Positions 49,528 through 63,352 of a DNA stretch of 64,000 nucleotides are shown piece after piece. Both the position numbers and the translations under genes were made by a program. The stretch comes from Halobacterium wangiae (lineage in GTDB: Archaea; Halobacteriota; Halobacteria; Halobacteriales; Halobacteriaceae): assembly GCF_021249345.1 (NCBI RefSeq), contig NZ_CP089588.1, positions 186,001 to 250,000 of the forward strand, given 5' to 3'. The notes under the pieces were generated by a model that was not told the DNA's origin, did not search any database, and was given only the letters and a program-made list of their open reading frames with translations. Positions within the stretch are counted from its first letter, which is position 1, and each line of letters begins with the position of its first letter.

Positions 49528-50577
49528 TTATTCTGAATCATTGTCTGAGGCGCTGAGAATGTCGAGGTCGTTCGTTTCGGGGCGTCGGCGGGCCAGTTCG
49601 TCGTCCAAATCGGCCTTATCGTAGTAGCGCCGGATCGTCTCCGGACTCGACGCCACCCGCTCCGCGACTTTGACGTAGGAGAGTCCCCGGTTCAGCTGCC
49701 AGGTGATACTCCCCGTCCGAATCGCGTGCGGGGCGCGGCTACTCGGACACTTCGACGCGTGGCTCTTCTCCGTGTAATGGCAGGTCGCGCGCTCCCGATT
49801 ATGCGGGCACGCGGTCGCAACACAGGGTTGTGTCGCCTGATATGCCCACGTCTGAAGCGTCGACTCCGCCGGTCGGCCAAAACGCGTCGTCAACAGTGGC
49901 GTCCGTCCGTTTTCGTCCCGTTTCTCAGCGCGCTCTCGTTCGATGTAGAAGTCCAGGGCGTCCGCCGTCGCGTCCGTCAGCGCGACGTTTCGCTCGTGCT
50001 CGCTCCCGTCCTTCAGGCGCGTGGGTGGACGGTGACGGAACCGGATGACGCGGTCCCCGTCGTCGTAGTCGCCCAGGTCCAGCGCCCGGAAACAGGAGAT
50101 TCGGCCGCCGATGTGCCACATGAGTTCGAGAACGACGTGGTGAATCGTCCCGTAGTCCCGCGTGCTCTCCCGGAAGTGCTCCAGGAGCCGGCGCGCGTCG
50201 ACGGCCTCCAGGCGCTTGTCGCTCGTCTGCTCGTCCTTCGAGAGTTTCGGGAGTTCAATCCGCTCCGGGAGATCGTCGTCGACGACGTCCAGGCGGACAC
50301 AGTATTTCGCGAGTTCCTGGAGGGAGACAAGCTTGCCCTTCACCGTCGCGGGGGCGTCTCCGCGCTCGTCCAGGAACCGCTCGTATTCGTCGATAATCCA
50401 GCCGTCCAGGTCGCGCATGACGTCAACGTCGTCCCGGTCGTGAGCCCACCGAACGAACTGCCGGAGGCGATTCGCGTAACTCCGAACTGTCTTGTCCGTA
50501 TTCTTGTTCTGGCGCTTCGCCAGGAATCGCTCGGCGGCCTCACGGGGAGTTAGGTCGCGCTGGCGGTCGTCACTCAT
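49528..50577 (-). CDS. Tyrosine-type recombinase/integrase
   Basis: 349 residues from ATG 50577. N-terminal SAM-like domain (residues about 10-95), then the catalytic domain: Arg159 in HIGGRISCF, Lys189 region RLKDG, His284-x-x-Arg287 (HAIR) and nucleophile Tyr318/319 in RRYYDK. A Cys-rich insert (CVATACPHNRERATC) just before HxxR is typical of haloarchaeal integrases. Overlaps the zinc-ribbon gene (ATGA). It likely integrated the element that follows. Confidence 0.94.
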   Translation of the reverse strand: MSDDRQRDLTPREAAERFLAKRQNKNTDKTVRSYANRLRQFVRWAHDRDDVDVMRDLDGWIIDEYERFLDERGDAPATVKGKLVSLQELAKYCVRLDVVDDDLPERIELPKLSKDEQTSDKRLEAVDARRLLEHFRESTRDYGTIHHVVLELMWHIGGRISCFRALDLGDYDDGDRVIRFRHRPPTRLKDGSEHERNVALTDATADALDFYIERERAEKRDENGRTPLLTTRFGRPAESTLQTWAYQATQPCVATACPHNRERATCHYTEKSHASKCPSSRAPHAIRTGSITWQLNRGLSYVKVAERVASSPETIRRYYDKADLDDELARRRPETNDLDILSASDNDSE

Positions 50578-50747
50578 CGCGTATCGCCTCCCGCGGTCGC
50601 GCTCACCTCCCGGACGACCTCCGCGTTTAGGCGGTCCTCGCAATCGTCGCACGCGTTGACCTTCCCGTCGGGGTCCCGCACGACGAGTTCCCGAACGGTC
50701 GCGTCAGTACGTCCACAGCCGTCGCACTCGCGGGGGTCGGGGCTCAT
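50574..50747 (-). CDS. Small zinc-ribbon protein in the integrase operon
   Basis: 57 residues beginning MSPDPRECDGCGRTDATVREL. Two Cys pairs (CDGC and CDDC) separated by ~24 residues suggest a zinc ribbon. Its stop overlaps the integrase ATG, and its start overlaps the winged-helix stop, making a tight three-gene operon. Possibly an excision or directionality partner; inference only. Confidence 0.78.
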   Translation of the reverse strand: MSPDPRECDGCGRTDATVRELVVRDPDGKVNACDDCEDRLNAEVVREVSATAGGDTR

Positions 50748-51103
50748 CCGGACACCTCCGCGGTCTCGTCGGCCAGCTGCTGGCCGCCGTCGGTCAGCCC
50801 GTAGAAGCGGCCCTTCGAGCGCTCCTCGGGGACGAGCAGTTCGACCACGTCGCGCTCGCGGAGTTCTCCGAGCGTCCGGGAGACGTGCGTGACCGCGAGG
50901 TCGGCCCGGTCACTGATCGTCGTCGGCGTCGCCGGCCCGCCGACGTCGAGGGCGGCGACCACGGCACACCGGTATTCGGAGGCCGCGACGAACCCGAGGG
51001 CGTCCCAGTCGACGCCGCCCTCGAACGCCCCTACCCGGGCCACGTTCAGAACGAGGCCGACTCGAAGTGGCCCATCGTCTTCTCGATGCTCGTCGAACAG
51101 CAA
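50744..51103 (-). CDS. Winged-helix (MarR/ArsR-like) regulator in the integrase operon
   Basis: 119 residues from ATG 51103, or 99 residues from GTG 51043. The HTH is CAVVAALDVGGPATPTTISDRADLAVTHVSRTLGELRERDVVELL, followed by the wing GRFYGLTDGGQQLADE. The upstream 20 codons overlap a plus-strand coil-like frame, and the shorter start is favoured by that. It probably controls integrase or element genes. Confidence 0.8.
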   Translation of the reverse strand: MLFDEHREDDGPLRVGLVLNVARVGAFEGGVDWDALGFVAASEYRCAVVAALDVGGPATPTTISDRADLAVTHVSRTLGELRERDVVELLVPEERSKGRFYGLTDGGQQLADETAEVSG

Positions 51104-51190
51104 CAGGAGATCGCGAAACTCCGCGGCGAACTCGTCGAAGCCCGCCAGAACGGGGAGCCATCGGCTTCGGAGTCGGAGGCGCGGGCATAA
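51086..51190 (+). other. Possible C-terminal coiled-coil protein fragment
   Basis: The frame MLVEQQQEIAKLRGELVEARQNGE has the heptad look of a protein tail and ends SEARA before a stop. It overlaps the start of the winged-helix gene on the other strand. It may be the remnant of a lost gene; no intact upstream part is seen. Confidence 0.35.
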
Positions 51191-51334
51191 GTTGAATTCC
51201 AGGACTTTGGTGATGCCTGGTTGCTGATCTAAGGCGGGGCCAGTTCTATCGCCAGACGAAGAATCGCTAAAACGAGGTAAACCTGAGAGAGGAGTCGAGG
51301 TTGGCTTACTTAGGTCGGAGACAGAGGATAGAGA

Positions 51335-51985
51335 CTACTGTGAGTTCTCCTCGATGACCATCTGATTCAATTCGTCCGCGAACCGGTCGATTTTCCGGAG
51401 GTGACGAACGAGATAGTGCTGACGATCGCCAACGTCAAGAGTGATATTCCCTAGACCGAAAAGGCGGAGATAGAACGGGCGGTGGGTCCGCAGGGATTTC
51501 ACCTTCTGAAGCGGGAGGCGGTTCGTGTTCGAACCGAGGAACCGGGTCTCAATTACGAGCTGTTCGTCGGTGAGATGGTAGCTCGTAAGCGTGTTCTTCC
51601 AATACGTCCACAGGCCGGTAGTGAACAGTGACCCGCCAGCGAAGAGGGAGACGGTCGGATAGACGTAGGGGACACGGGTGTAGAATAACCAGTATGCTGC
51701 AAGCGCGAGGAAAAACAGTCCAACAACCGACTTGGCGCGGGCAAAGGGGGTTACGGGATGGTCGCTTTCGATGTGGTTCTCAAAGGTCCCAGTTCTGAAC
51801 TCGTCTGCGCCCACGACGTGGACGTAACAACCAATAAGGAAAATCCCGACACCAACTGTCAGTGCGGTAGCTGCTATCTGGTTGGGGACTGCGGTGGATA
51901 GTGTCCCGGTGTGTCCAGCCAGCCCAAACGCGACAAAGGGACTGGCGACGATACTGCTCCAAACTGCGGGCATTCCTCGTGTCAT
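51335..51985 (-). CDS. PH-domain (YdbS/bPH2-like) membrane protein
   Basis: 216 residues. Four membrane segments (SSIVASPFVAFGLAG, IAATALTVGVGIFLIGCYVHVV, VVGLFFLALAAYWLF, and YPTVSLFAGGSLFTTGLW), then a bacterial PH-like domain: YHLTDEQLVIETRFLGSNTNRLPLQKVKSLRTHRPFYLRLFGLGNITLDVGD. PH-like domains of this type sit in membrane proteins of uncertain role. Same strand as the beta-propeller gene, 24 bases after its stop. Confidence 0.82.
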   Translation of the reverse strand: MTRGMPAVWSSIVASPFVAFGLAGHTGTLSTAVPNQIAATALTVGVGIFLIGCYVHVVGADEFRTGTFENHIESDHPVTPFARAKSVVGLFFLALAAYWLFYTRVPYVYPTVSLFAGGSLFTTGLWTYWKNTLTSYHLTDEQLVIETRFLGSNTNRLPLQKVKSLRTHRPFYLRLFGLGNITLDVGDRQHYLVRHLRKIDRFADELNQMVIEENSQ

Positions 51986-52009
51986 ATGTATTGATGTGGT
52001 TTGCTCGAT

Positions 52010-53395
52010 TTACTCGTACTTGAAGCGCTGATAGAGGAGGCTTCCAACACTGACTGCGAACCCGATTACTGTCAGGCCCCAAGGTGTCAATGATTCCTTA
52101 AGAACACTGTCGCCGCGAGTGAAGAAACCCCGGTTTGACGTATCGGAATCGGGAGTTGTCTTACTCTCCGTGGGATCTGGTGTCGGTGTTGATTCCCCCT
52201 TGCTCATCGTTGTGGGGGTCTCGGTGGTGGTTGCTGAGGATTCAGTACTGGTAGCCGTTTCAGTAGTGGTGCTGGTAGTGGTTTGCGGAGATTCAGCGAC
52301 CCTACGAATCGCAGAGAGGGACTCTGTCTGGGTGTCTGCGACGAATGCGTGGGTATCACTCAACGCAGGGGTAGAAATGGTCTCGTCATCCCCTTCACCA
52401 ACCTTGTAGCGCCAATTGGTAACACCGGTAGCCAGCTTGATACCTGACACAACCAGGGTTTCACTGTCGTCCAGACCAGCGACTACGAGTTCGTTGTTCT
52501 GGATAGCGATATCTCGGTCTGGATTGATGCCTAAAGAGTACTGGCGCCGACCTGTATCCGCAGAGAATACGTGAACCCTCGAAGCGGCGGCAACGACGTA
52601 GTTTCCCGATGCTGCAGTGGCAGTAATACCATGGTCATCAAGCTTATTTTTCCAGGTCACAGTACCGTCAGCCACCTCCACACGAGCCAGGCGTCCCCAT
52701 TGACTGCCAACGTACACTGCCCCATCTTCGCTGCTTATCCCAGTGGTGGAGGCCTCATGGTCCCAGTCACCCAAATCAACGCTCCACTCTTTAGCTCCCG
52801 AATCAAGCCCAACCGCTCGCAGTCCACTACTGCCTTCAGCGAAAACAACAGTATCCTCAGTGACGGCCGCTCGAAGCGGCACATACGTATCATTGCCCTC
52901 CTTGGTAGGCCACTGGGAACCGCCAGAGTCGAGGTCGAGGGCCCCGATTTTTCCGTCAAGTCCAAAGAGAAGCTTGTCCCCAACTATTTGGAGGCTGGTT
53001 ACGTTCCCCGATACAGAACGAGTCCAGAGCTCCTTACCATCAGAGGGGTCAAATGCGAAGACGCTCCCACTTTCTGTTCCGACAACTACTGCGGAATCAG
53101 AGGCATCAATCGCGTATGCCGGAACGACCCCATTAGTTCCGGCCATCCATTCGTCTTCACCACTCTGCGCGTCACAACAGAGCAAGGAGCCAGAATTGTC
53201 GGCAAAGTATACCTTCCCGTTCTGAGCTACCGGATCAGAACCGAAGGTTGTGTTCTTTCTGGACCAGTCAGCTGTGCCTGGCTCGGCCGGGTTATTCCGG
53301 TTGCTGGCTGATGAAAGACGCGTACTCACCGTAGTGGCAACTATTCCCGAAGCGGTTGCAAGGACGGTGCGTCGTGAAAGGGTATGCTTAGTCAT
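52010..53395 (-). CDS. Tat-exported PQQ-like beta-propeller surface protein with C-terminal anchor
   Basis: 461 residues from ATG 53395. Twin-arginine signal LSRRTVLATASGIVATTVS. Repeated blade motifs (GKVYFADNSGSLLCCDAQSGEDEW, VVVGTESGSVFAFDPSDGKELW, GAVYVGSQWGRLARVEVADGTVTW) give a six- to eight-bladed PQQ-type propeller. Residues about 365-425 are Thr/Ser-rich, likely O-glycosylated, and LTPWGLTVIGFAVSVGSLLY is a C-terminal membrane anchor. A surface stalk protein; ligand unknown. Confidence 0.88.
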   Translation of the reverse strand: MTKHTLSRRTVLATASGIVATTVSTRLSSASNRNNPAEPGTADWSRKNTTFGSDPVAQNGKVYFADNSGSLLCCDAQSGEDEWMAGTNGVVPAYAIDASDSAVVVGTESGSVFAFDPSDGKELWTRSVSGNVTSLQIVGDKLLFGLDGKIGALDLDSGGSQWPTKEGNDTYVPLRAAVTEDTVVFAEGSSGLRAVGLDSGAKEWSVDLGDWDHEASTTGISSEDGAVYVGSQWGRLARVEVADGTVTWKNKLDDHGITATAASGNYVVAAASRVHVFSADTGRRQYSLGINPDRDIAIQNNELVVAGLDDSETLVVSGIKLATGVTNWRYKVGEGDDETISTPALSDTHAFVADTQTESLSAIRRVAESPQTTTSTTTETATSTESSATTTETPTTMSKGESTPTPDPTESKTTPDSDTSNRGFFTRGDSVLKESLTPWGLTVIGFAVSVGSLLYQRFKYE

Positions 53396-53405
53396 GGTGT
53401 TACAG

Positions 53406-53684
53406 TTAAGTCCCAAATTCAGACAGTTTGGTCTGGACTGACAGCTGGCTCAAACCCGAGTGAGTATTCCAAATCGGATACTCAGAGGAATTGAACTCAG
53501 CCAAGTCCCGCTCTAACCTCTGAATGTGACTATTGAGTTCCGACTTGGACAAGGTCTGGAGCCACGGGAACCGGTCCGAAGGCGGAGCCACAGGACCACC
53601 CTCTTCAGGATGGCTCCGTGAAGCCCTGATCAGTTCCTCCTTTGCGGCTCGGAGCTCGGCTTTAAGCTTTGTTTCGGTGGACAT
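53406..53684 (-). CDS. Small coiled-coil protein
   Basis: 92 residues from ATG 53684. Helix TKLKAELRAAKEELIRASRS, then LSKSELNSHIQRLERDLAEFNSSE. No known family. It ends ten bases before the propeller gene on the same strand, so likely in one operon with it. Confidence 0.6.
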   Translation of the reverse strand: MSTETKLKAELRAAKEELIRASRSHPEEGGPVAPPSDRFPWLQTLSKSELNSHIQRLERDLAEFNSSEYPIWNTHSGLSQLSVQTKLSEFGT

Positions 53685-54002
53685 TGTATTTCCCAACGCT
53701 GTTCTCAACTCCGCCCGCTTCGCAATGGGATTGCCGCCATCAGTCGCGCGGACAGATCAGAACAGCGATGGAGCCACCGGAGTGACAACCATATGACCTA
53801 CAACTGGTAATCGAATGATAATAAAAATACCGAAGTGGGCATGCTGTGGATCTATCACTTTAGAAGATTTCCGAGAGAAGAGGTCTTCCTCAAGACCATT
53901 GAACTCCACCAATAGCAAGGCGCGGCAATAACAGATTTATAGGGCCATACGTAGACCGACACCTATTCGGGCTTCTTCTCAGAACTCACGGCCGACGAAG
54001 AA
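53685..54002. other. 318-base AT-rich divergent spacer
   Basis: Separates the minus-strand operon from the plus-strand repeat protein. Very AT-rich patch at 53806-53840 with ATAATAAAAATACC, and GATTTATAGG near 53934-53943 as a likely TATA box for the plus-strand gene. No gene seen. Confidence 0.5.
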
Positions 54003-54368
54003 ATGACCTCGAACAGAGAGGAGTGCCTCGACGCCCTTCAGGAGGCGGTCGACGAACTCGGCCACGCCCCCACCGTCGAGGAGTACAAGACCCTCGACAT
54101 TTCGCCCTCCTACAACACCATCGCGCTCCACTGTGGCGGCTGGACGGCCGCCATCGAGGAACTTGGCGAAGAACCCAGTACCGGCAGTCAGTACACGGAG
54201 CAGGACTGTCTCGACGCTCTCCAGGAGGCCGCCGACCAGCTCGGTGAGGAACCGTCGATGTGGCAGTACGACCGCCTCGATCTCCGCCCGTCGTCAAGCA
54301 CGATTACGCACACCTTCGGGACGTGGAACGAAGCGAAGGTGGAAGCAGGTGTCCGTCCCGAAGACTGA
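54003..54368 (+). CDS. Homing-endonuclease-associated repeat protein
   Basis: 121 residues consisting of two ~55-residue repeats: ECLDALQEAVDELGHAPTVEEYKTLDISPSYNTIALHCGGWTAAIEELGEEP and DCLDALQEAADQLGEEPSMWQYDRLDLRPSSSTITHTFGTWNEAKVEAGV. This three-helix repeat accompanies homing endonucleases as a DNA-binding module; here there is no nuclease domain. Probably binds DNA. It is convergent with the Orc1/Cdc6 gene. Confidence 0.85.
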   Translation: MTSNREECLDALQEAVDELGHAPTVEEYKTLDISPSYNTIALHCGGWTAAIEELGEEPSTGSQYTEQDCLDALQEAADQLGEEPSMWQYDRLDLRPSSSTITHTFGTWNEAKVEAGVRPED

Positions 54369-54392
54369 GCAAGAGTGGCGACACTACTCTCC

Positions 54393-55391
54393 TTACCCGT
54401 GGCGGTAGTGCTTCCCTCGCCCAACCCCGTCTGAATAGACGAGTTCGTACTCGCTGAGCCGCCCCAGATACTTCCGCCGCGTCGACCGCGCGACGGGGTC
54501 CTGGGCGCGATCTTCGTACCGCGCGTGGAGTGTCCCGGCGTCCAGCTCGCCCGCCTCCCGGACGATCTCGTAGAGCAGGCGCTTGTCCGTATCCAACTCC
54601 CGAACACGATGCGCTCGCATATCTGCCCGGGCGTCCACCTCGACGTCGGCCACGAGCGCCTGCGTGATCTCCTCTCGCCCATCCGCAACCGCCTGCTCGA
54701 CCGCGCTTCGCAACAACGCGATGCCCGCTCGGGCGTCCCCGGCGGCCAGGTCCGCAATGTGCTCGAGAGCCTCCTCGCGAATCACGCCCGGCCGCAACCC
54801 CGCATTCACGCGGCCCTGAAGGATAGCCGTCATCTCCGCCACCGTGTAGCGGTCTAGGTGGACCTTCCGCGCGCCGCCGAAGCGACTCTGGAGCTGCTGA
54901 TCGAACTCCGCGAACAGCGCCTCCTCGTCGAGACACACCAGCAACAGCGTCACGTTCGGTTCCTCCCAGAGTGCCTGGAGGGTACTGTAATCCTCGAGGA
55001 CATGGACCTCGTCGACGATCGCGATGAACTGCCCGTCGATGTCCCCGATGCGGTCGAGGAATCGCGACGCGTGCGAGCCCTCCTTGCGAATGTCGTAGGC
55101 CACCTCCGCGTCTCGAGCGAGCGCGTATAATGCGTCCGCCCGCGTGCTGTTCGACATCGCGTTCACGTAGGCGGTGGTGGTGTCGAGGTTCTCCTGCTGG
55201 AGCAGGTCGACCACGTAGTGGGCGATCGTCGTCTTCCCCGTGCCACTCGGCCCGAAGATGAACGCGTCCTCGCCAGCGAAGCCGTCCGCAACGGGGCGCA
55301 GCGTCGTCGTGAGCGCGTCGATCTCGCCTTCGCGGTGGTGGAGTTCCTGGGGGACGAAGTCCGGTTGAAGTGCGCGAGCGTCAGTGATCAT
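54393..55391 (-). CDS. Orc1/Cdc6-type replication initiator
   Basis: 332 residues, a little short of the usual ~400. AAA+ ATPase: Walker A GPSGTGKTT (47-55), Walker B IAIVDEVHV (Asp127, Glu128), sensor-like LLLVCLDEEALF, and arginine-rich LQSRFGGARKV. The C-terminal winged helix ends GVGRGKHYRHG. Haloarchaea carry many such genes, often on plasmids or integrated elements, so it may mark an element-borne origin. It is divergent to the zinc-finger gene across 158 bases. Confidence 0.92.
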   Translation of the reverse strand: MITDARALQPDFVPQELHHREGEIDALTTTLRPVADGFAGEDAFIFGPSGTGKTTIAHYVVDLLQQENLDTTTAYVNAMSNSTRADALYALARDAEVAYDIRKEGSHASRFLDRIGDIDGQFIAIVDEVHVLEDYSTLQALWEEPNVTLLLVCLDEEALFAEFDQQLQSRFGGARKVHLDRYTVAEMTAILQGRVNAGLRPGVIREEALEHIADLAAGDARAGIALLRSAVEQAVADGREEITQALVADVEVDARADMRAHRVRELDTDKRLLYEIVREAGELDAGTLHARYEDRAQDPVARSTRRKYLGRLSEYELVYSDGVGRGKHYRHG

Positions 55392-55549: not shown

Positions 55550-56857
55550 ATGAAATCCAACATCAACGAACGAGTATTACTGAAACAAACCCTGGATGAG
55601 GTCTTTGAGGACCACTCAAGTCCTTCGAATCTCTTGGACCGTCTCTATCAGAACGAGAAGGACAGCCTGCCAGAGGGCTTTCTGGATAAAGCAAACCCGC
55701 GAGAACCAGATGACATTCTAGTTATCCGCGGCACAAAGAGTCGGTTTGACCGCCGGACGTGGAAAGAGGACTTGCAGTTGACTGATGAAGCCTTCCATCA
55801 GGAGGATTTCGCAGACCCTCCTGATGGAGAGGTATCCCTCCCTGAGTTCAAAGATCTCCTATCAGATGACCACCAGAGTATTGTCTCCCATGAGTACGGT
55901 GACTGTCCCGCCTGTGAAGGAGCTCCTGAGAAACACTGCAATTCCTGCGATGGAGACGGCGTAGTTACTTGTGAAGCGTGTACTGGCAATGGAACCATTG
56001 ACTGCAGCGAATGTGGGGGGGCTGGCAGCCAAGATTGTCCGGGTTGCCAGGGTACAGGGAAAAACACCTGTGCGTCATGTGATGGTGACGGCGAACGACT
56101 CGTTGAGTCAAGCTGTCCAAACTGCTCAGATGGGACTATCCGGACGAAGGAGACATGTGCCCAGTGCCAAGGAGACGGAACAGTACTCAAGCAGGGGGAA
56201 GAGATTTCATGTCCGCGGTGTTCTAACGGGTGGTTTTCGACGAGTGGAGTTGTTGCCGTAGAAAACGTTTGTCCGGAGTGTAGTGGTCGGGGGGCAATAC
56301 GTAGACGTACTACCTGTTCTGACTGCGCGGGGAGTGGAAGCTTAGGATGCAACCGGTGCGAATCCTTGGGAACGATCGGCTGTGAGGAGTGCGGAGAGAC
56401 GGGAGCAGTTTCCTGCGGGCAATGTAATGGGCAGGGGAGGTGTGCTTGTGAGGACTGCCAAGACGGCACGATTGAGTGTTCCCTGTGCGAGGGGACTAGC
56501 GAAATACACAGTCTCGTTGTCCGACACACGAAGATTGCAGCCAAACCGTCGGACGTCAAGGTCGGAAACTTACCCCACGGAATCTCCAACCCTGATTGGG
56601 AGAGCATCGAACCACTTTATCTCGAATACGAAACGAAAAACGGGGCGACAGTACCTGTAGAACCCGAAAGTATCGACTTAGACTCAATCGAGGATGGTTC
56701 ATACGTTCGTATTGATATCCGGTATGCAGCAATACGGCAGGTAAAATATGATCACAGCGAGCGGAATTTCAGGGTGATGGAAATGGGCGGCACCCTCTAT
56801 TATGATCGTATCCCGGAACGAAAGGGGCTGATTGGTCGCATCAAAGGTTGGCTCTAA
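55550..56857 (+). CDS. DnaJ-type zinc-finger protein with 16 CXXC motifs
   Basis: 435 residues from ATG 55550. Residues 119-313 form 16 consecutive CXXC knuckles (starting CPAC, CNSC, CEAC, CSEC), many followed by GxG as in the DnaJ Cys-rich domain, which normally has only four. There is no J domain in this protein; residues 1-118 are unrecognised. The C-terminal 120 residues are strand-rich. It faces a J-like protein in convergent orientation (49-base gap), suggesting a split DnaJ-like pair. Function unknown; chaperone-like substrate binding is inferred. Confidence 0.85.
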   Translation: MKSNINERVLLKQTLDEVFEDHSSPSNLLDRLYQNEKDSLPEGFLDKANPREPDDILVIRGTKSRFDRRTWKEDLQLTDEAFHQEDFADPPDGEVSLPEFKDLLSDDHQSIVSHEYGDCPACEGAPEKHCNSCDGDGVVTCEACTGNGTIDCSECGGAGSQDCPGCQGTGKNTCASCDGDGERLVESSCPNCSDGTIRTKETCAQCQGDGTVLKQGEEISCPRCSNGWFSTSGVVAVENVCPECSGRGAIRRRTTCSDCAGSGSLGCNRCESLGTIGCEECGETGAVSCGQCNGQGRCACEDCQDGTIECSLCEGTSEIHSLVVRHTKIAAKPSDVKVGNLPHGISNPDWESIEPLYLEYETKNGATVPVEPESIDLDSIEDGSYVRIDIRYAAIRQVKYDHSERNFRVMEMGGTLYYDRIPERKGLIGRIKGWL

Positions 56858-56906
56858 CTAGCGTACGTAGAGTCTGGAATCAGTGGGTATTCGACCACTT
56901 TGCGGG

Positions 56907-57359
56907 TTAGCTATCAGGCGAATACCCCTCGTCTCTGAAAGTCTGATTTTCTGGTTTGTGCTCCCGCATCCAAGCAGTCGTATCGGATGGCATGCCTGCA
57001 ATCCGCCACTGGATGAATGTCTGGTGTCCTAACCTTGGGCCAAGGTGCTCAAGCATCTCCTCATATGTTGATTTGTGCAACTTCAGCGTGTCCCTCGCCT
57101 CAAGCAACGCACGTGCCTTTGACCGAGCACGGGACTCCTCACCATGGCCTTCGGTCGCTAATAACCTATCTTTGAAGGCCTGCGATATTTGCTCTGTTGA
57201 ACACTCTGCTTTGCGCTCAAGACCCAGAACGTCGTAGTACGTGATCGCATTGGGGAACTCCGGGATATTTGCTAATTCAGTAGATGGAGATTCCTCTGGA
57301 CTAGGGGCGTCTGGATCCCACGCATCGTCATCCGAATACGGATTAGGGACATCGTCCAT
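56907..57359 (-). CDS. J-like domain protein lacking HPD
   Basis: 150 residues. After an acidic N-terminal ~35 residues comes NAITYYDVLGLERKAECSTEQISQAFKDRLLATEGHGEESRARSKARALLEARDTLKLHKSTYEEML, matching helices I-IV of a J domain (YYDVLGL, QAFKDRL, ALLEARDTL, YEEML), but the HPD loop between helices II and III is replaced by a sequence around TEGHGEE. Without HPD it should not stimulate Hsp70 normally. Its convergent neighbour supplies a DnaJ-type zinc finger. Confidence 0.72.
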   Translation of the reverse strand: MDDVPNPYSDDDAWDPDAPSPEESPSTELANIPEFPNAITYYDVLGLERKAECSTEQISQAFKDRLLATEGHGEESRARSKARALLEARDTLKLHKSTYEEMLEHLGPRLGHQTFIQWRIAGMPSDTTAWMREHKPENQTFRDEGYSPDS

Positions 57360-57751: not shown

Positions 57752-58915
57752 TTACTTCAATCCCGGGACTGTGAATGAGAAGGGGCCCAGGTGAATTTTC
57801 GTCTGGTGGTCCATATTCTCTAATTGGGAAATTAGTTCCTTAGCGGTATCCTCAATTTCTTCAAGGCCATTTTCCAAGGTCTCCAATGCGCTATCACGCA
57901 TATCTTCAGCATCTGCTCGTTGCGACTCATAATGCTCAATGTCGTATTCTAACCCGTCTCTTTGCTCCATCATTTCCGTCATAGCGGGTTCGTCTTCAGC
58001 ATCTCCGGATAACGTAGAGAGGGAAGTTTCAACTGCATTAAGGTTAGACCGGAGGTCACTGATTCTATCGTCCACTGCAGTAAGATAATCTTCTGTTGTC
58101 TGCTGATCCGCCAAATAACTCTCAAGTTTATGCGAGTGCATTGACAAGCCTTCTAATTCTTTAGTCACTTCATCGTCAATATCTGCAGGAGCCTGTTCTG
58201 CTAAGCCACTTAACGCTTCGAGCGAGCTTATAATATTTGAAATGTTACTTGGTGGGGAGCCGTCTACCTCTGTGGACTCAGTGTGAGAAACTATGCTTTC
58301 CAAAACGCCTATTGCCGTGTCAGTCCACTTCTTCTCATACTGGATTGACTGCCTGTATCTGATAATCTGGAAGGTATATCGTGAGAAGGCCCCGGCCGCA
58401 ATGCCAACATATGCAATAATAACATAAATCGGGTCTATGGGACTGGAGACTCCAGAGATCCAAGCGAAAAGCTCGCGATTAACGCCTTCAAGAGTCCAAC
58501 TGATTCTATCCCAGAATAGGTAAAGCCCCATAACGGGGAGCGATGACAGAGCCACGATTATGCTTTTCTCGGCGGTAGCTGTCAGCTTCTGTTCTGGGTT
58601 TTCAACTGATTTCACACCCCGTCGAATGCCTAGGTATGCAACCGGGAGAATGCTGAACAGGCCTAAGAATACGCTAATCAATCCAACCTTTAGGAAAACA
58701 GAAGCAGTACTCAAGAAAATCTCGGCGGTGAAAAAGAGCGCGCCTCCTGTCAGGAATAGCAGAGACACTTCCACAAATCGATATTCCATATGGAAATCAG
58801 AAATCCTCTCATCGCCAGTATTCTGGAACTGCTGAATTGCTTGAAGAAGAATTGCTACCGCCGGAAGAGCAAGCGCAACTATTTGAAGTAATGTAACTGG
58901 CGAGGGAGCTGGCAT
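57752..58915 (-). CDS. Membrane protein with long coiled coil, function unknown
   Basis: 387 residues. Five hydrophobic segments in the first 190 residues (for example LLQIVALALPAVAILLQAIQ, VSLLFLTGGALFFTAEIFL and YVIIAYVGIAAGAFSRY), then a cytoplasmic region of ~180 residues with a coiled coil (DRISDLRSNLNAVETSLSTL through LENGLEEIEDTAKELISQLEN). AT-rich compared with the host genes. Same strand as the AlbA_2 gene 74 bases upstream, so the two may be one operon. Reminiscent of membrane effectors in defence loci, but this is unproven. Confidence 0.75.
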   Translation of the reverse strand: MPAPSPVTLLQIVALALPAVAILLQAIQQFQNTGDERISDFHMEYRFVEVSLLFLTGGALFFTAEIFLSTASVFLKVGLISVFLGLFSILPVAYLGIRRGVKSVENPEQKLTATAEKSIIVALSSLPVMGLYLFWDRISWTLEGVNRELFAWISGVSSPIDPIYVIIAYVGIAAGAFSRYTFQIIRYRQSIQYEKKWTDTAIGVLESIVSHTESTEVDGSPPSNISNIISSLEALSGLAEQAPADIDDEVTKELEGLSMHSHKLESYLADQQTTEDYLTAVDDRISDLRSNLNAVETSLSTLSGDAEDEPAMTEMMEQRDGLEYDIEHYESQRADAEDMRDSALETLENGLEEIEDTAKELISQLENMDHQTKIHLGPFSFTVPGLK

Positions 58916-58989
58916 ACACTCAGAAACAGTAGTAGCATGCCTTCAATCGTTCGTATTCCAATTAAAAAAATAGGAGTTATATCTTGAAT

Positions 58990-59892
58990 TCAGTCGACAT
59001 CTGGAACCTCTACATCCAAGTCGGTGAGTTCAGCAAGCTGCTCAAGGCCATATCCCAATCGTGAAACCTTTTTCTTGAATTCCCGCCTCTCATTTAGATA
59101 GAAATCCTTCTTGGAATCGTGATAGTCCTCTATGACTCCGTTCATCGCCCTTCCAAACATAACCTCACGATGTTCGATCTCCCGAATTCGAGTTAGAACA
59201 CGGGATATTGTGTCCCTGACCTCCTCGTCTCCGTAGAGGTGGTCTGCATTCCGAAGCACCTCCCGGATCCCGTCAGTGTTTACGACATGGAAGTCAGGGG
59301 GTGAGTGTCCATGAACGTGGGTGATATCTGGCCTGCCTTGGGTGACCGCATCACCGAATCGGTTAATCTCTAGCTCCAGTTGTCGAATGGTCTGTTGCTT
59401 TCGGTCACTTTCGATGAATAAGGACTCCATTTGTTCGCGGCTCATCGGCTCTTTCCGGTCATTCACTCGGACATAAATCGAGCCGTCGCTACACCGGACG
59501 GGTTTCCGGGTCGCTTCCTCAATCTTTACTGCAAATAGAATCCGGTCCACCGAATCCGAGGGAGTCTCAATCCGAGAGGACGTCTCTACAGGGATAATCG
59601 GGGTTGTATTCTGAAGTAGTCGAGTGACAGATTGTTCTACCTCGTGCTCTGGTGGCTCAAACGGGTACAGATCTCCGTCGTCGTTAATCCCGAAGATGAG
59701 GACTCCTCCGCTCGCGTTAGCGAACGCACAGAGTTCCCGTTCCAGTTTGATTTGCCATTGCTCTGAATCCTCGTTCTCATCGGCATGCAATTTCTCCTTA
59801 TATTCGAGATACTGGCCCTCAGAACGGTCTGAAATCCTCTCTACTGTCTCCCAGTCCCAGTCTGTGACTGGCGTCTGAAATGGTAAGTCCAT
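58990..59892 (-). CDS. AlbA_2 (Schlafen-type) domain protein
   Basis: 300 residues from ATG 59892. The AlbA_2 domain is near the N-terminus: SEGQYLEYKEKL, then LERELCAFANASGGVLIFGINDDGDLYPF, and GSIYVRVNDRKEPMSREQMESLF. Such domains are found in transcription factors and in Schlafen-like RNA nucleases or defence proteins. The C-terminal part (helical, ~130 residues) is unrecognised. It starts upstream of the coiled-coil gene. AT-rich composition. Confidence 0.82.
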   Translation of the reverse strand: MDLPFQTPVTDWDWETVERISDRSEGQYLEYKEKLHADENEDSEQWQIKLERELCAFANASGGVLIFGINDDGDLYPFEPPEHEVEQSVTRLLQNTTPIIPVETSSRIETPSDSVDRILFAVKIEEATRKPVRCSDGSIYVRVNDRKEPMSREQMESLFIESDRKQQTIRQLELEINRFGDAVTQGRPDITHVHGHSPPDFHVVNTDGIREVLRNADHLYGDEEVRDTISRVLTRIREIEHREVMFGRAMNGVIEDYHDSKKDFYLNERREFKKKVSRLGYGLEQLAELTDLDVEVPDVD

Positions 59893-59944
59893 AGAATATC
59901 CGAGACACCGGCCTGTAAAATTGCTTTGTACTGGCTGAACCTCG

Positions 59945-59985
59945 CGGAATCCTTCGGTTTTATAGCCGGCTCCTGTCGGCTCGCG
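59945..59985 (+). repeat. Cargo-zone direct repeat, copy 2
   Basis: Full-length repeat unit: left arm CGGAATCCTTCGGTT, TTTTATA box, then the hairpin GCCGGCTCCTGTCGGC and CTCGCG. In this copy the plus-strand promoter would read into the 3' end of the minus-strand pentapeptide gene, so any transcript is antisense to it. Confidence 0.75.
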
Positions 59986-60052
59986 ACAGGGGTTGGTCAT
60001 ATCCGGTCCGTCACTGCAAATTCGCTAATCCCAATCCTCAGAGGAGGAGGTA

Positions 60053-61414
60053 TCAGAACTGTTCCCTGTTGCCAAGGACGTAGCCGAGTAAGACGATCAG
60101 GAGCGTCCCAAAGAAGGTCTCGACCATCGTAAGAAGTTGGGTGAATGTCCCGGATGGAGGGCTAGTCGGAGGGGCCGCTGTAGTAAACGTCATTATGCTG
60201 TAGTAGACGCTGTTTGGAATTCCCGAGTACTCGTACCAGAGAGTACAGACTGAGAACAACAGAACCATGACGAGGCCAATCCTTTTCACGCGGACACCGT
60301 ATCCCGTCAAGTATCGGGATAGAAGAGAGCCAAGGTAACTAACCGAGACCATCCCCTCGGCTGCTTTTGCTTCATTTTCCCTGGCCCGTCGTTCACGGAC
60401 ATGAAAGAGCCTCGCACGGTCGACAAGCCCGTTATTGCCAAATTCTGATTTGAGTTGGTGGTACACTCTAGCGATTGTATCCCAATCATGTGCGGACTCT
60501 GCCCTTGATTCTAAACCGGATTGTATTCCGCACTCTGTGGCCCTGTCAACCTGGATATCAGAGAGTTGGGTTGTATTGAAGGTCGTACTCTGGAGGTCCG
60601 TCCCGCGGAAATCAGTAGCGGACAGGTTTGTTTCTTGGAATAGCGTGCTCTCTAAGATTGCCCGTTGAAAGTCTGACTGGACAAATTCAGATCGTATTAT
60701 CCGGCAGCCGTCAGCTACCGCATCATATAATCTTACGTCTTCTGCCCTAGAATCTGTAATAAAGGTGCCAAACATTGATGCGGAGTCAACTTCGGCCTCT
60801 GAGAGGTCACTGTACCTAATTTCAGCTTGATCTAGAATTACATCGCCCATTATCGCTTCCTTCAAATCACAGTTGTGCAGATTAGAATGGGATAAATCGG
60901 CATGGATGAAAGTCCCCTCACTGAGGTCGCAAAAGGCCAGATTGCAGCCGGAAAAGTCGGCAGCCCATGCGTTCGAAGTCGATAAATCAACACTAAGGAG
61001 GCGAGAGTTTTGGAACATCACATCCTCAAGCTCGCTTTTTACGAAATCCATATCCGAGATGGTGCTTTCCGAAAAATCAGCTCCATTGAGAACACATTCG
61101 CTGAAATCAAACTCCAAACCTAAGTCCAAATTCCTGAAGATTGCTCCATCAAATCTTATATCAGGAGGCCTAACGTGATTCGATATTTCACTGGGAGATT
61201 TCTCATCAGTGTTCGCATGAACAATACACTGGTCGAACCCCTTCCAAGTAGGCCTAAAACAAGTGAAATCCCCAAGAACAGAACTCCCCGTTCCATACTC
61301 TACAGAAAAACCGCATTTATCAGCAGGTGCACTATCTTCAAGATACGCTGCTTCCCATTTTGATGGTAGTGAGTCCGAATCAGGAGGCCAGACATTGTAA
61401 GAAACACTTTTCAT
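60053..61414 (-). CDS. Pentapeptide-repeat protein with C-terminal ion-channel domain
   Basis: 453 residues. Residues about 85-285 carry pentapeptide repeats A(D/N)L/F-x-x (for example ADFSESTISDMDFVKSELED, CNLAFCDLSEGTFIHADLSHSNL). Residues 370-440 form a two-helix pore unit: VKRIGLVMVLLFSVCTLWY, the filter-like YYSIMTFTTAAPPTSPP (where channels have TVGYGD), and MVETFFGTLLIVLLGYVL. Pentapeptide plus channel proteins occur in bacteria and archaea and are suspected effectors. AT-rich and minus-strand, flanked by repeats 2 and 3. Confidence 0.85.
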   Translation of the reverse strand: MKSVSYNVWPPDSDSLPSKWEAAYLEDSAPADKCGFSVEYGTGSSVLGDFTCFRPTWKGFDQCIVHANTDEKSPSEISNHVRPPDIRFDGAIFRNLDLGLEFDFSECVLNGADFSESTISDMDFVKSELEDVMFQNSRLLSVDLSTSNAWAADFSGCNLAFCDLSEGTFIHADLSHSNLHNCDLKEAIMGDVILDQAEIRYSDLSEAEVDSASMFGTFITDSRAEDVRLYDAVADGCRIIRSEFVQSDFQRAILESTLFQETNLSATDFRGTDLQSTTFNTTQLSDIQVDRATECGIQSGLESRAESAHDWDTIARVYHQLKSEFGNNGLVDRARLFHVRERRARENEAKAAEGMVSVSYLGSLLSRYLTGYGVRVKRIGLVMVLLFSVCTLWYEYSGIPNSVYYSIMTFTTAAPPTSPPSGTFTQLLTMVETFFGTLLIVLLGYVLGNREQF

Positions 61415-61711: not shown

Positions 61712-63352
61712 ATGCAAAGGTGGCGCCGCATTCTCGGGGGTAACAACCCCGTCGACGAGCGGCTATTGCGGTTGGTGGGCATCGCTTTCGTGACGCTCGT
61801 TGCGACCGTCGCGTTGGCGGGCTGCATGGGGCTGGGCACGGGCGGCGGGGGACCGTCGCTCTCGGACGCACAAGTCGGTGTCGCGGAGAGTGGCGGGCCG
61901 GCAGTGGCGGTCAACTACTCGGTCGACGACTACGCGACCATCCTCTTGGAGGGGCCAGAAAACAACATCCTCAACGAGGTTGAGGTCTCGCCGGAGGGCA
62001 ACCAGACGGCCATGTACATGGGAGACGTAGGTGCGGGCGAGTACGAGCTTGTACTCCGCCAGGGTGACGAGACAGTTGATTCACAGACAATGACCTTTGA
62101 GGGCGCCGAGCCACAGGTCGAGATTGTCTCACCAAATTGGTCCGGGAACACGATTGAGTCAGTCGACGTGACTATTACGAATACGGGCGACCTTCCAGTC
62201 TACGTGGATAATGTGGCGTACTCGGCCCGTGGGGACTCGGTAGAGAACAGTGTCTACAGCTGGATTGACGCCAACGACTCGCGGACGTTCAATGTGGCGG
62301 GGTCTTTTGGTTCGTCCGTGACCATTGAGGAGCGCGGTGACGTGATTGGGTCTGTCGAAGTGGCGACGGACGCTGGCGTTCTCACCGATTCGTTCCAGCG
62401 AACGTTCGACGGTCCGAATCTCACGGTCACGAATATTGATACGGAGTGGGAGAACAACGAGCTACACACTGCGGAGGTGACTGTCCGGAACGATGGCGAT
62501 CTCCCGACGACCGGTAACGTGACGATTGTAAGTGGTGGCGAGTCTCTGGCGTCCTCGTACAGCAATGAGGTTGCAGTCGGTTCGACAACGACCTTCGAAC
62601 TGGTCGGGTACTCGTACATCTATCGAGCAGAGTCCGGTGGGACGGCCAATCTGGACGTGATCGTCAATTCGCCGACCGGATATGTGACCGACCAGATTAC
62701 GCGGGAAATTGCGGGTTCGAACGTCTCTATTGAATCGATGAATACAGAGTGGCAGAACGGGGAACTGGTATCTGTCACGTTTATAGCGGCGAACGATGGC
62801 GAAGTGGCGAGCGATGGGGCCGCTGAAGTCACAGTGAACGGTGAAGTCGTCTCGAAGGATTCAATCTCGATTGAACCATCCACGACGTCCGAGTTCACCG
62901 TATCGGATGGTGCGTATACTGTTGAACCGCTCTACACGGCAGACAGTGGGGGATCACAAGAAGTGACTCTCTCCATCAGTGGCGACGGCTGGTCTGACTC
63001 GGAGACGTCGACGACCTCACTTGGCGGCGTCGACGGAGAACTCTCGTCGATATCGACAATGTTCTTCGGGAACTACGACGAGGACACGTCAGACCTCAGT
63101 TCCGTGGACTTCAACGTCCGGAACACGGGAGACTTAACGATCAGCTACGACGCCGTGGAAGTCTCGATTGATGGAGTGAGCACCACGGATAATCTCTACT
63201 CGGCCACGGAGTTGACGCCAGGACAGTCGACGAGTGAGTACGTCTCGACGGACCTCACCGTGGACGATGGAAGTCACGAACTCACGATTCGGTTACTGGA
63301 CGACGGCGAAGAGGTCCTTTCGGAGACAGTCACCGTCTCGACGAACGAGTGA
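61712..63352 (+). CDS. Large lipoprotein with CARDB-like repeats
   Basis: 546 residues. Signal peptide LLRLVGIAFVTLVATVALAGC gives a lipobox (Cys at about 38). The mature protein consists of about five beta-sandwich units with the N-D-G-x-x-P motif (for example ITNTGDLPVYVDNVAYSARG, VRNDGDLPTTGNVTIVSG, and AANDGEVASDGAAEVTVNGE), matching CARDB/PKD-like adhesion repeats. Surface protein of the integrated element; may act in adhesion, receptor binding or vesicle/virus-like functions. Confidence 0.82.
   Translation: MQRWRRILGGNNPVDERLLRLVGIAFVTLVATVALAGCMGLGTGGGGPSLSDAQVGVAESGGPAVAVNYSVDDYATILLEGPENNILNEVEVSPEGNQTAMYMGDVGAGEYELVLRQGDETVDSQTMTFEGAEPQVEIVSPNWSGNTIESVDVTITNTGDLPVYVDNVAYSARGDSVENSVYSWIDANDSRTFNVAGSFGSSVTIEERGDVIGSVEVATDAGVLTDSFQRTFDGPNLTVTNIDTEWENNELHTAEVTVRNDGDLPTTGNVTIVSGGESLASSYSNEVAVGSTTTFELVGYSYIYRAESGGTANLDVIVNSPTGYVTDQITREIAGSNVSIESMNTEWQNGELVSVTFIAANDGEVASDGAAEVTVNGEVVSKDSISIEPSTTSEFTVSDGAYTVEPLYTADSGGSQEVTLSISGDGWSDSETSTTSLGGVDGELSSISTMFFGNYDEDTSDLSSVDFNVRNTGDLTISYDAVEVSIDGVSTTDNLYSATELTPGQSTSEYVSTDLTVDDGSHELTIRLLDDGEEVLSETVTVSTNE

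Follow-up and report, generated by a model that had tools for sequence, protein, structure and literature searches.

Two adjoining genes of a haloarchaeal chromosome raise the question of whether the zinc finger and the J domain of a DnaJ-type chaperone can be parted, specialised and yet kept together as a pair, and whether such a pair still serves an Hsp70. The genes are located in the window, i.e., the whole stretch of 64,000 nucleotides analysed here, from the 3.11-Mb chromosome of Halobacterium wangiae (C1:186001–250000; genome G000; other G-numbers denote the haloarchaeal genomes compared with it). Features of the pair are as follows.

55550–56857, plus strand: CXXC-rich zinc protein (open reading frame; 435 aa from ATG 55550, 439 aa from TTG 55538).
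55904–56488, plus strand: array of 16 CxxC knuckles with mirror-like spacings of 11, 11, 11, 11, 11, 15, 14, 18, 20, 15, 11, 11, 11, 11 and 10.
56156–56326, plus strand: four central knuckles with spacings of 18, 20 and 15, matching the DnaJ zinc-finger region (NCBIfam DnaJ, residues 200–268; Pfam PF00684).
56489–56854, plus strand: C-terminal domain (LPHGI ... YDYGEQ region), common to a wider haloarchaeal CXXC family (alignments A1 and A4; 24 of 394 genomes).
56907–57359, minus strand: J-like protein of 150 aa with an acidic N-terminal extension (open reading frame; HMM test).
57048–57242, minus strand: J-like domain, residues ~40–104 (Pfam PF00226, residues 40–93; HMM test).
57144–57152, minus strand: position of HPD, here E70-G71-H72 (alignment A2).
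57006–57041, minus strand: motif GPxxGHxxFxxW immediately following the J domain, common to the J relatives in G323, G100, G021 and G055, weaker in G312, G233 and G065.

The zinc protein is better read from ATG 55550, where its relatives begin, than from TTG 55538, the start taken by the ORF lister four codons upstream. Exactly 16 CxxC motifs are counted. Start and knuckle number are those of the initial annotation. Pfam DnaJ_CXXCXGXG is matched with E 4.9e-5, below the gathering score. Comparison of the zinc array profile with canonical haloarchaeal DnaJ by hhalign gives 95.8%; the alignment covers the zinc array only, without a detectable match to CTD1/CTD2. Weak sequence matches are to BSD2 (PDB sequences) and anti-TRAP; PDB 1exk is also matched. 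The C-terminus is a short tail without a transmembrane segment. Both characters that define the wider haloarchaeal family are present, namely the C-terminal domain of alignment A4 (E 3.8e-29 against the A4 profile, of which the protein itself is one row) and an even, mirror-spaced CxxC array. The C-terminal domain of the family may resemble eukaryotic SSUH2. AlphaFold2 modelling with a poor viral alignment (A7) yields a low-confidence model (pLDDT 36).

The J-like protein matches Pfam DnaJ with E 0.01, below the gathering score. Because this match is weak, an HMM was built from other haloarchaeal J domains, with the window protein and its G323 ortholog left out. The HMM gives 34.2 bits (E 6.9e-9) for the window protein and 27.4 bits for the G323 protein; the top score among 2,000 composition-matched shuffles of the window protein is 12.6 bits. 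The five-member J alignment, compared profile against profile with canonical haloarchaeal DnaJ, reaches 97.9%. The J homology, proposed when the locus was first annotated, is real. The motif GPxxGHxxFxxW follows the (first) J domain in all five J proteins of the pair. An AlphaFold2 model of the J-like protein alone, from the single sequence, has pLDDT 48, too weak to judge the fold, and a Foldseek search with this low-confidence model returns zero matches. In alignment A2 the position of HPD, described at first as missing, is indeed occupied by EGH in the window protein; it reads DGD in G323 and is kept as HPD in G100, G021 and G055. HPD is absent also from the J domain of G230. In a maximum-likelihood tree the J proteins of the window and G323 form a clade (support 99/93), which groups with the HPD-bearing first J domain of G100, G021 and G055 (support 89/91). 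Given this grouping, HPD was probably lost on the branch leading to the window and G323.

The two genes converge, with stop codons 49 bases apart, as initially annotated. Full-length relatives of the zinc protein occur among 394 haloarchaeal genomes in G323 (51% identity) and in G100, G021 and G055 (~34%); a separate search of the same genomes finds J relatives at the same places. A J gene adjoins the zinc gene at all five full-length loci (window and four relatives), in two orientations. Gene order is convergent in G000, G100, G021 and G055, with an 11-nt overlap in the last three, and tandem in G323, with the zinc gene first and a gap of 14 nt. The link of the two genes has thus outlived rearrangement, and co-occurrence elsewhere, the check proposed with the initial annotation, is found even where gene order differs. 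The two proteins probably work together. Being convergent, the genes are not co-transcribed in the window. With 5 of 394 haloarchaeal genomes the pair is rare, and the 12 further genomes from the window's genus are without it. Between G000 and G323, identity is 45–46% and the reading frame is kept; differences at codon positions 1, 2 and 3 are 0.39, 0.30 and 0.67 for the J-like protein and 0.39, 0.27 and 0.64 for the zinc protein. Both proteins are constrained at codon positions 1 and 2.

The J proteins of G100, G021 and G055 (363–380 aa; L062 9637–10779, L063 9745–10881, L064 8929–10020) contain two J domains, the first with HPD and the second without it, and have a hydrophobic, likely transmembrane, stretch at the C-terminus. 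Read from sequence, the pairs of G323, G100, G021 and G055 lie among ordinary chromosomal genes; the G323 pair adjoins trp-operon-like genes and the g13 pair adjoins sugar-metabolism genes.

Spacing of the knuckles bears on the fold of the array. The spacings of the window protein are repeated without change in G323 (11, 11, 11, 11, 11, 15, 14, 18, 20, 15, 11, 11, 11, 11, 10). The second group (~34% identity) has 11, 11, 10, 11, 11, 15, 15, 19, 15, 15, 10, 10, 11, 11, 11; G008 has 11, 11, 15, 17, 18, 17, 15, 11, 11; G085 has 11, 11, 15, 12, 15, 11, 11; and G047 has 11, 11, 11, 11, 17, 11, 10, 11, 17, 11, 11, 11, 11. Each of these arrays reads almost the same in reverse, and the best centre of symmetry falls at mid-array. 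The combined permutation p for mirror symmetry is ~1e-8 (11 clade representatives), part of the symmetry being due to longer loops in mid-array. In the zinc finger of DnaJ, motif 1 pairs with motif 4 and motif 2 with motif 3 (structure 1exk). Nested pairing of this kind predicts mirror spacing, whereas repeats in translational register would be expected from tandem duplication alone. The simplest reading is nested pairing, by which the two-zinc hairpin of DnaJ would be lengthened to N/2 sites, eight in the window protein.

CXXC arrays are also carried by viruses and plasmids. Viral CXXC-array proteins with 6–14 knuckles, several of them mirror-spaced, are encoded on IMG/VR contigs L073–L113 and on L157 (636-kb phage LR756504.1); L073, L076 and L089 have the same mirror symmetry. 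Most are without a PHROG match, and one matches amidoligase families. A J gene is detectable at 0 of 41 viral CXXC-array loci of the alignment scan, within the flanks covered. In the model haloarchaeon Halobacterium salinarum, plasmid PHS2 contains a 340-aa open reading frame with 13 CxxC (L156 6172–7194; NC_010369.1 6747–7769), at which no gene is listed, the PLSDB gene table being incomplete; it is matched also on the 365-kb NRC plasmid record. Neither protein of the pair, nor the J alignment, detects a relative of the pair in viral scans. Phage and plasmid records give partial CXXC matches only, and no plasmid copies of the J-like protein are found. Scans of genome contigs with alignments A1 and A3 give no pair, only two distant J proteins of Natrinema. 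A virus-encoded pair is rejected on the viral scans and on the 41 viral loci without a J gene.

Matches to the A4 profile (C-terminal domain) occur in 24 of 394 haloarchaeal genomes, and in a separate draw of 394 genomes from the phylum they are confined to haloarchaeal genomes. Knuckle number in the family is 6 to 20, usually even. A J gene lies beside the zinc gene or is fused to it at 8 of the 24 loci; no J gene is present in the examined flanks of the remaining 16. With ~5 J domains per genome, a J gene is expected by chance within 3 kb at ~1% of loci, which gives p ~6e-11 for 8 of 24 loci and ~7e-6 for 4 of ~13 clades (the authors' own grouping). In G196 and G312, of different genera, the zinc gene is at most 1.4 kb from an HPD-bearing J gene, followed by an Hsp70 of 519–524 aa that reaches only to position 513 of the 599-position profile (E no higher than 1e-147); this truncated Hsp70 is a second copy, a full-length Hsp70 being present in both genomes. 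These conserved clusters (L065 12518–17579 in G196, L066 4608–9830 in G312) encode the CXXC zinc protein, an unknown protein of 222 aa, the J protein and the truncated Hsp70. In G230 a J domain without HPD stands at the N-terminus of a single 695-aa protein that also has hydrophobic segments, the C-terminal domain of the family and eight CxxC; genes for a protein kinase, FHA, zinc-ribbon and vWA proteins neighbour this fusion (L154 6848–8935). In G321, G296 and G281 the gene upstream of the zinc gene shares 4 nt with it and encodes a protein of 378–381 aa, whose sequence weakly resembles that of a diverged ATPase of the Hsp70/actin fold (Pfam Hsp70 E 2e-4 in one of the three, narrowly missing the cut-off; probability by hhalign 19%). 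These two-gene units of ATPase-like protein and 10-knuckle CXXC protein are at L147 5975–8154, L149 6365–8562 and L151 6160–8339. The CXXC proteins of G196, G312, G230, G321, G296 and G281 share with the window protein the C-terminal domain, mirror-spaced knuckles and links to J or Hsp70-type genes; they differ from the window pair in having 6–10 knuckles and usually a C-terminal transmembrane helix, with HPD kept in G196 and G312 and J fused in G230. HPD in the distant pair relatives and the dedicated Hsp70 beside relatives of the zinc protein point to an Hsp70-linked ancestry. The weight of linkage places the zinc protein with the J/Hsp70 machinery.

In the window the pair is surrounded by genes of an integrative element, two of which are listed here.

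49528–50652, minus strand: tyrosine integrase of the element (same core in G247 and G379).
54393–55391, minus strand: Cdc6/Orc1-like protein, core gene of the element (same core in G247 and G379).

The element core occupies 49528–55391 and 61712–63352 and comprises tyrosine integrase, HTH protein, HNH-repeat protein, Cdc6/Orc1-like protein and surface-like protein. The pair is placed between the Cdc6/Orc1-like gene and the surface-protein gene. In G247 and G379 the integrase, HTH and Cdc6-like genes occur together with different cargo; G247 has its surface-protein gene immediately beside the Cdc6 gene. Since the same core carries other cargo in these genomes, the window pair is variable cargo of the element. 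Three tandem genes at 57752–61414 (minus strand) encode a coiled-coil membrane protein, a Schlafen AlbA_2 protein and a protein of pentapeptide repeats whose C-terminal region is ion-channel-like; they are candidate defence genes and fellow cargo of the pair. The Schlafen, pentapeptide and Cdc6 neighbours were sought at the other pair loci and are shared by none. Models of PADLOC-DB 2.0.0 match neither protein of the pair at E 0.1, and a known defence system is rejected as the identity of the pair.

Among described systems, class A DnaJ (Hsp40 type I) is resembled in the CxxCxGxG knuckles, the four central ones spaced as in DnaJ, and in the HMM-recognisable J-type domain, so that the pair corresponds to the J and zinc-finger parts of a class A protein. 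The pair is not a class A DnaJ: the parts are encoded by two genes and not in a single chain, the knuckles number 16 instead of 4, the G/F region is absent and HPD is lost. BSD2/ZnJ2, PSA2 and ORANGE of plastids are likewise stand-alone DnaJ zinc fingers with the J domain absent from the chain, and ZnJ2 is reported to shield unfolded protein from aggregation (PMC5818400). Proteins of the BSD2/ZnJ2 kind have four motifs (two zincs) and no dedicated J-like partner gene, in contrast to the 16 motifs and the N- and C-terminal domains of the window zinc protein, which can be placed as an extension of this group. Pam16/Tim16, kinetoplastid Pam18 and Arabidopsis J-like proteins also have a J-type domain without HPD, and some HPD-less J-like proteins are argued to act without Hsp70 (PMC11349236). 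They are eukaryotic and not orthologous, and their partner is another J protein, not a zinc-ladder protein as here. By homology and HPD loss the J-like protein can be assigned to this loose group of HPD-less J-like proteins. Conflict systems of the GAP1-N2 type, centred on a GTPase and including fusions of HSP70, GrpE and J, similarly possess a dedicated chaperone set outside housekeeping (PMC7159879), but their GTPase, FNIII and tubulin components are not seen here. A literature search of partial coverage found no description of such a gene pair or of long archaeal DnaJ-type zinc ladders, in keeping with the opinion first given that no system of this arrangement is described.

The pair is interpreted, at about even chances, as a split, specialised DnaJ-like co-chaperone with a client-holding zinc arm and an HPD-less J protein as its assembly partner. 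The zinc protein would be a detached and greatly lengthened zinc-finger arm of DnaJ. Nested pairing of its knuckles, from the outermost (1/16, then 2/15) to the innermost (8/9), may produce eight zinc sites arranged as an antiparallel ladder and flanked by the N-terminal and C-terminal domains, and the rod so formed would bind protein that is unfolded or incompletely folded. Its obligate partner would be the J-like protein, descended from Hsp70-recruiting J proteins. Without HPD the J-like protein would no longer trigger the ATPase of Hsp70, and may instead bind, position or oligomerise the zinc protein in a physical complex. The fuller proposal is doubtful as a whole: an eight-zinc nested ladder would handle clients together with the HPD-less J protein and independently of Hsp70, and the pair would be accessory cargo of the element, possibly with a defensive role. 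The initial interpretation was of a pair that binds unfolded or foreign protein without an Hsp70, perhaps as a sensor. Its co-occurrence, J homology and HPD loss stand; Hsp70-free working and sensing of foreign protein are conjecture, and a canonical DnaK and DnaJ are encoded in the genome.

The strongest of the rival explanations, itself unlikely, draws on Pam16, which pairs with Pam18. The pair would still serve the housekeeping Hsp70: the J-like protein would dimerise with an HPD-bearing J protein of the cell and regulate or target it, with clients supplied by the zinc protein. The genome of the window encodes one canonical DnaK and several HPD-type J proteins; the two-J protein of G100, G021 and G055, which makes such a role plausible, joins an HPD-bearing and an HPD-less J domain, i.e., the Pam18/Pam16 logic in one chain; and HPD is kept in these more distant pair relatives. 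However, the window J-like protein is without a transmembrane segment or other obvious dimerisation module, and HPD is gone in the closest relative, G323, as well. Distinctly less probable is a sensor or effector of antiviral defence that detects unfolded or viral protein without Hsp70, as the initial annotation suggested. Location in variable cargo of an integrase-bearing element is compatible with defence without showing it, the Schlafen AlbA_2, coiled-coil membrane and pentapeptide/ion-channel genes adjoin the pair, and conflict systems built on chaperones, with fusions of Hsp70, GrpE and J domains, have been described elsewhere (PMC7159879). Against defence are the lack of a PADLOC match for either protein, the variation of neighbours between pair loci, and the ordinary chromosomal settings in G323 (trp-operon-like) and g13 (sugar metabolism).

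Very unlikely is a non-chaperone function, by which the zinc protein would serve in redox reactions, zinc storage or as a scaffold for nucleic acid or protein, and the J-like domain would be a plain interaction domain. Anti-TRAP, weakly matched here, binds a protein regulator through a DnaJ-type zinc fold, and J genes are lacking near many viral CXXC ladders; DnaJ zinc fingers are reported to have thiol activity (PMC4428491). Such a function is hard to square with a family repeatedly linked to genes for J, Hsp70 and Hsp70-like proteins. Chance adjacency with a decaying J gene, HPD loss being mere degeneration, is extremely improbable and largely refuted. The J-like gene is short and falls under the Pfam cut-off, as decay would have it, but adjacency at five of five loci and the constraint between G000 and G323 (identity, intact frame, codon positions 1 and 2) led to rejection of this explanation.

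Read as a split DnaJ-like co-chaperone, the pair would add to the biology of a domain that, to our knowledge, has so far always been studied within DnaJ. The zinc finger would here be a rod on its own, tunable over 6 to 20 knuckles, that accompanies J domains and Hsp70-type ATPases and in one case is fused to J. The role of the zinc arm alone and the use of a J domain once HPD is lost become testable, and the HPD-bearing and HPD-less pairs constitute a natural comparison of before and after. The mirror spacing would provide a specific structural prediction for many unannotated cysteine-rich proteins of archaea and phages.
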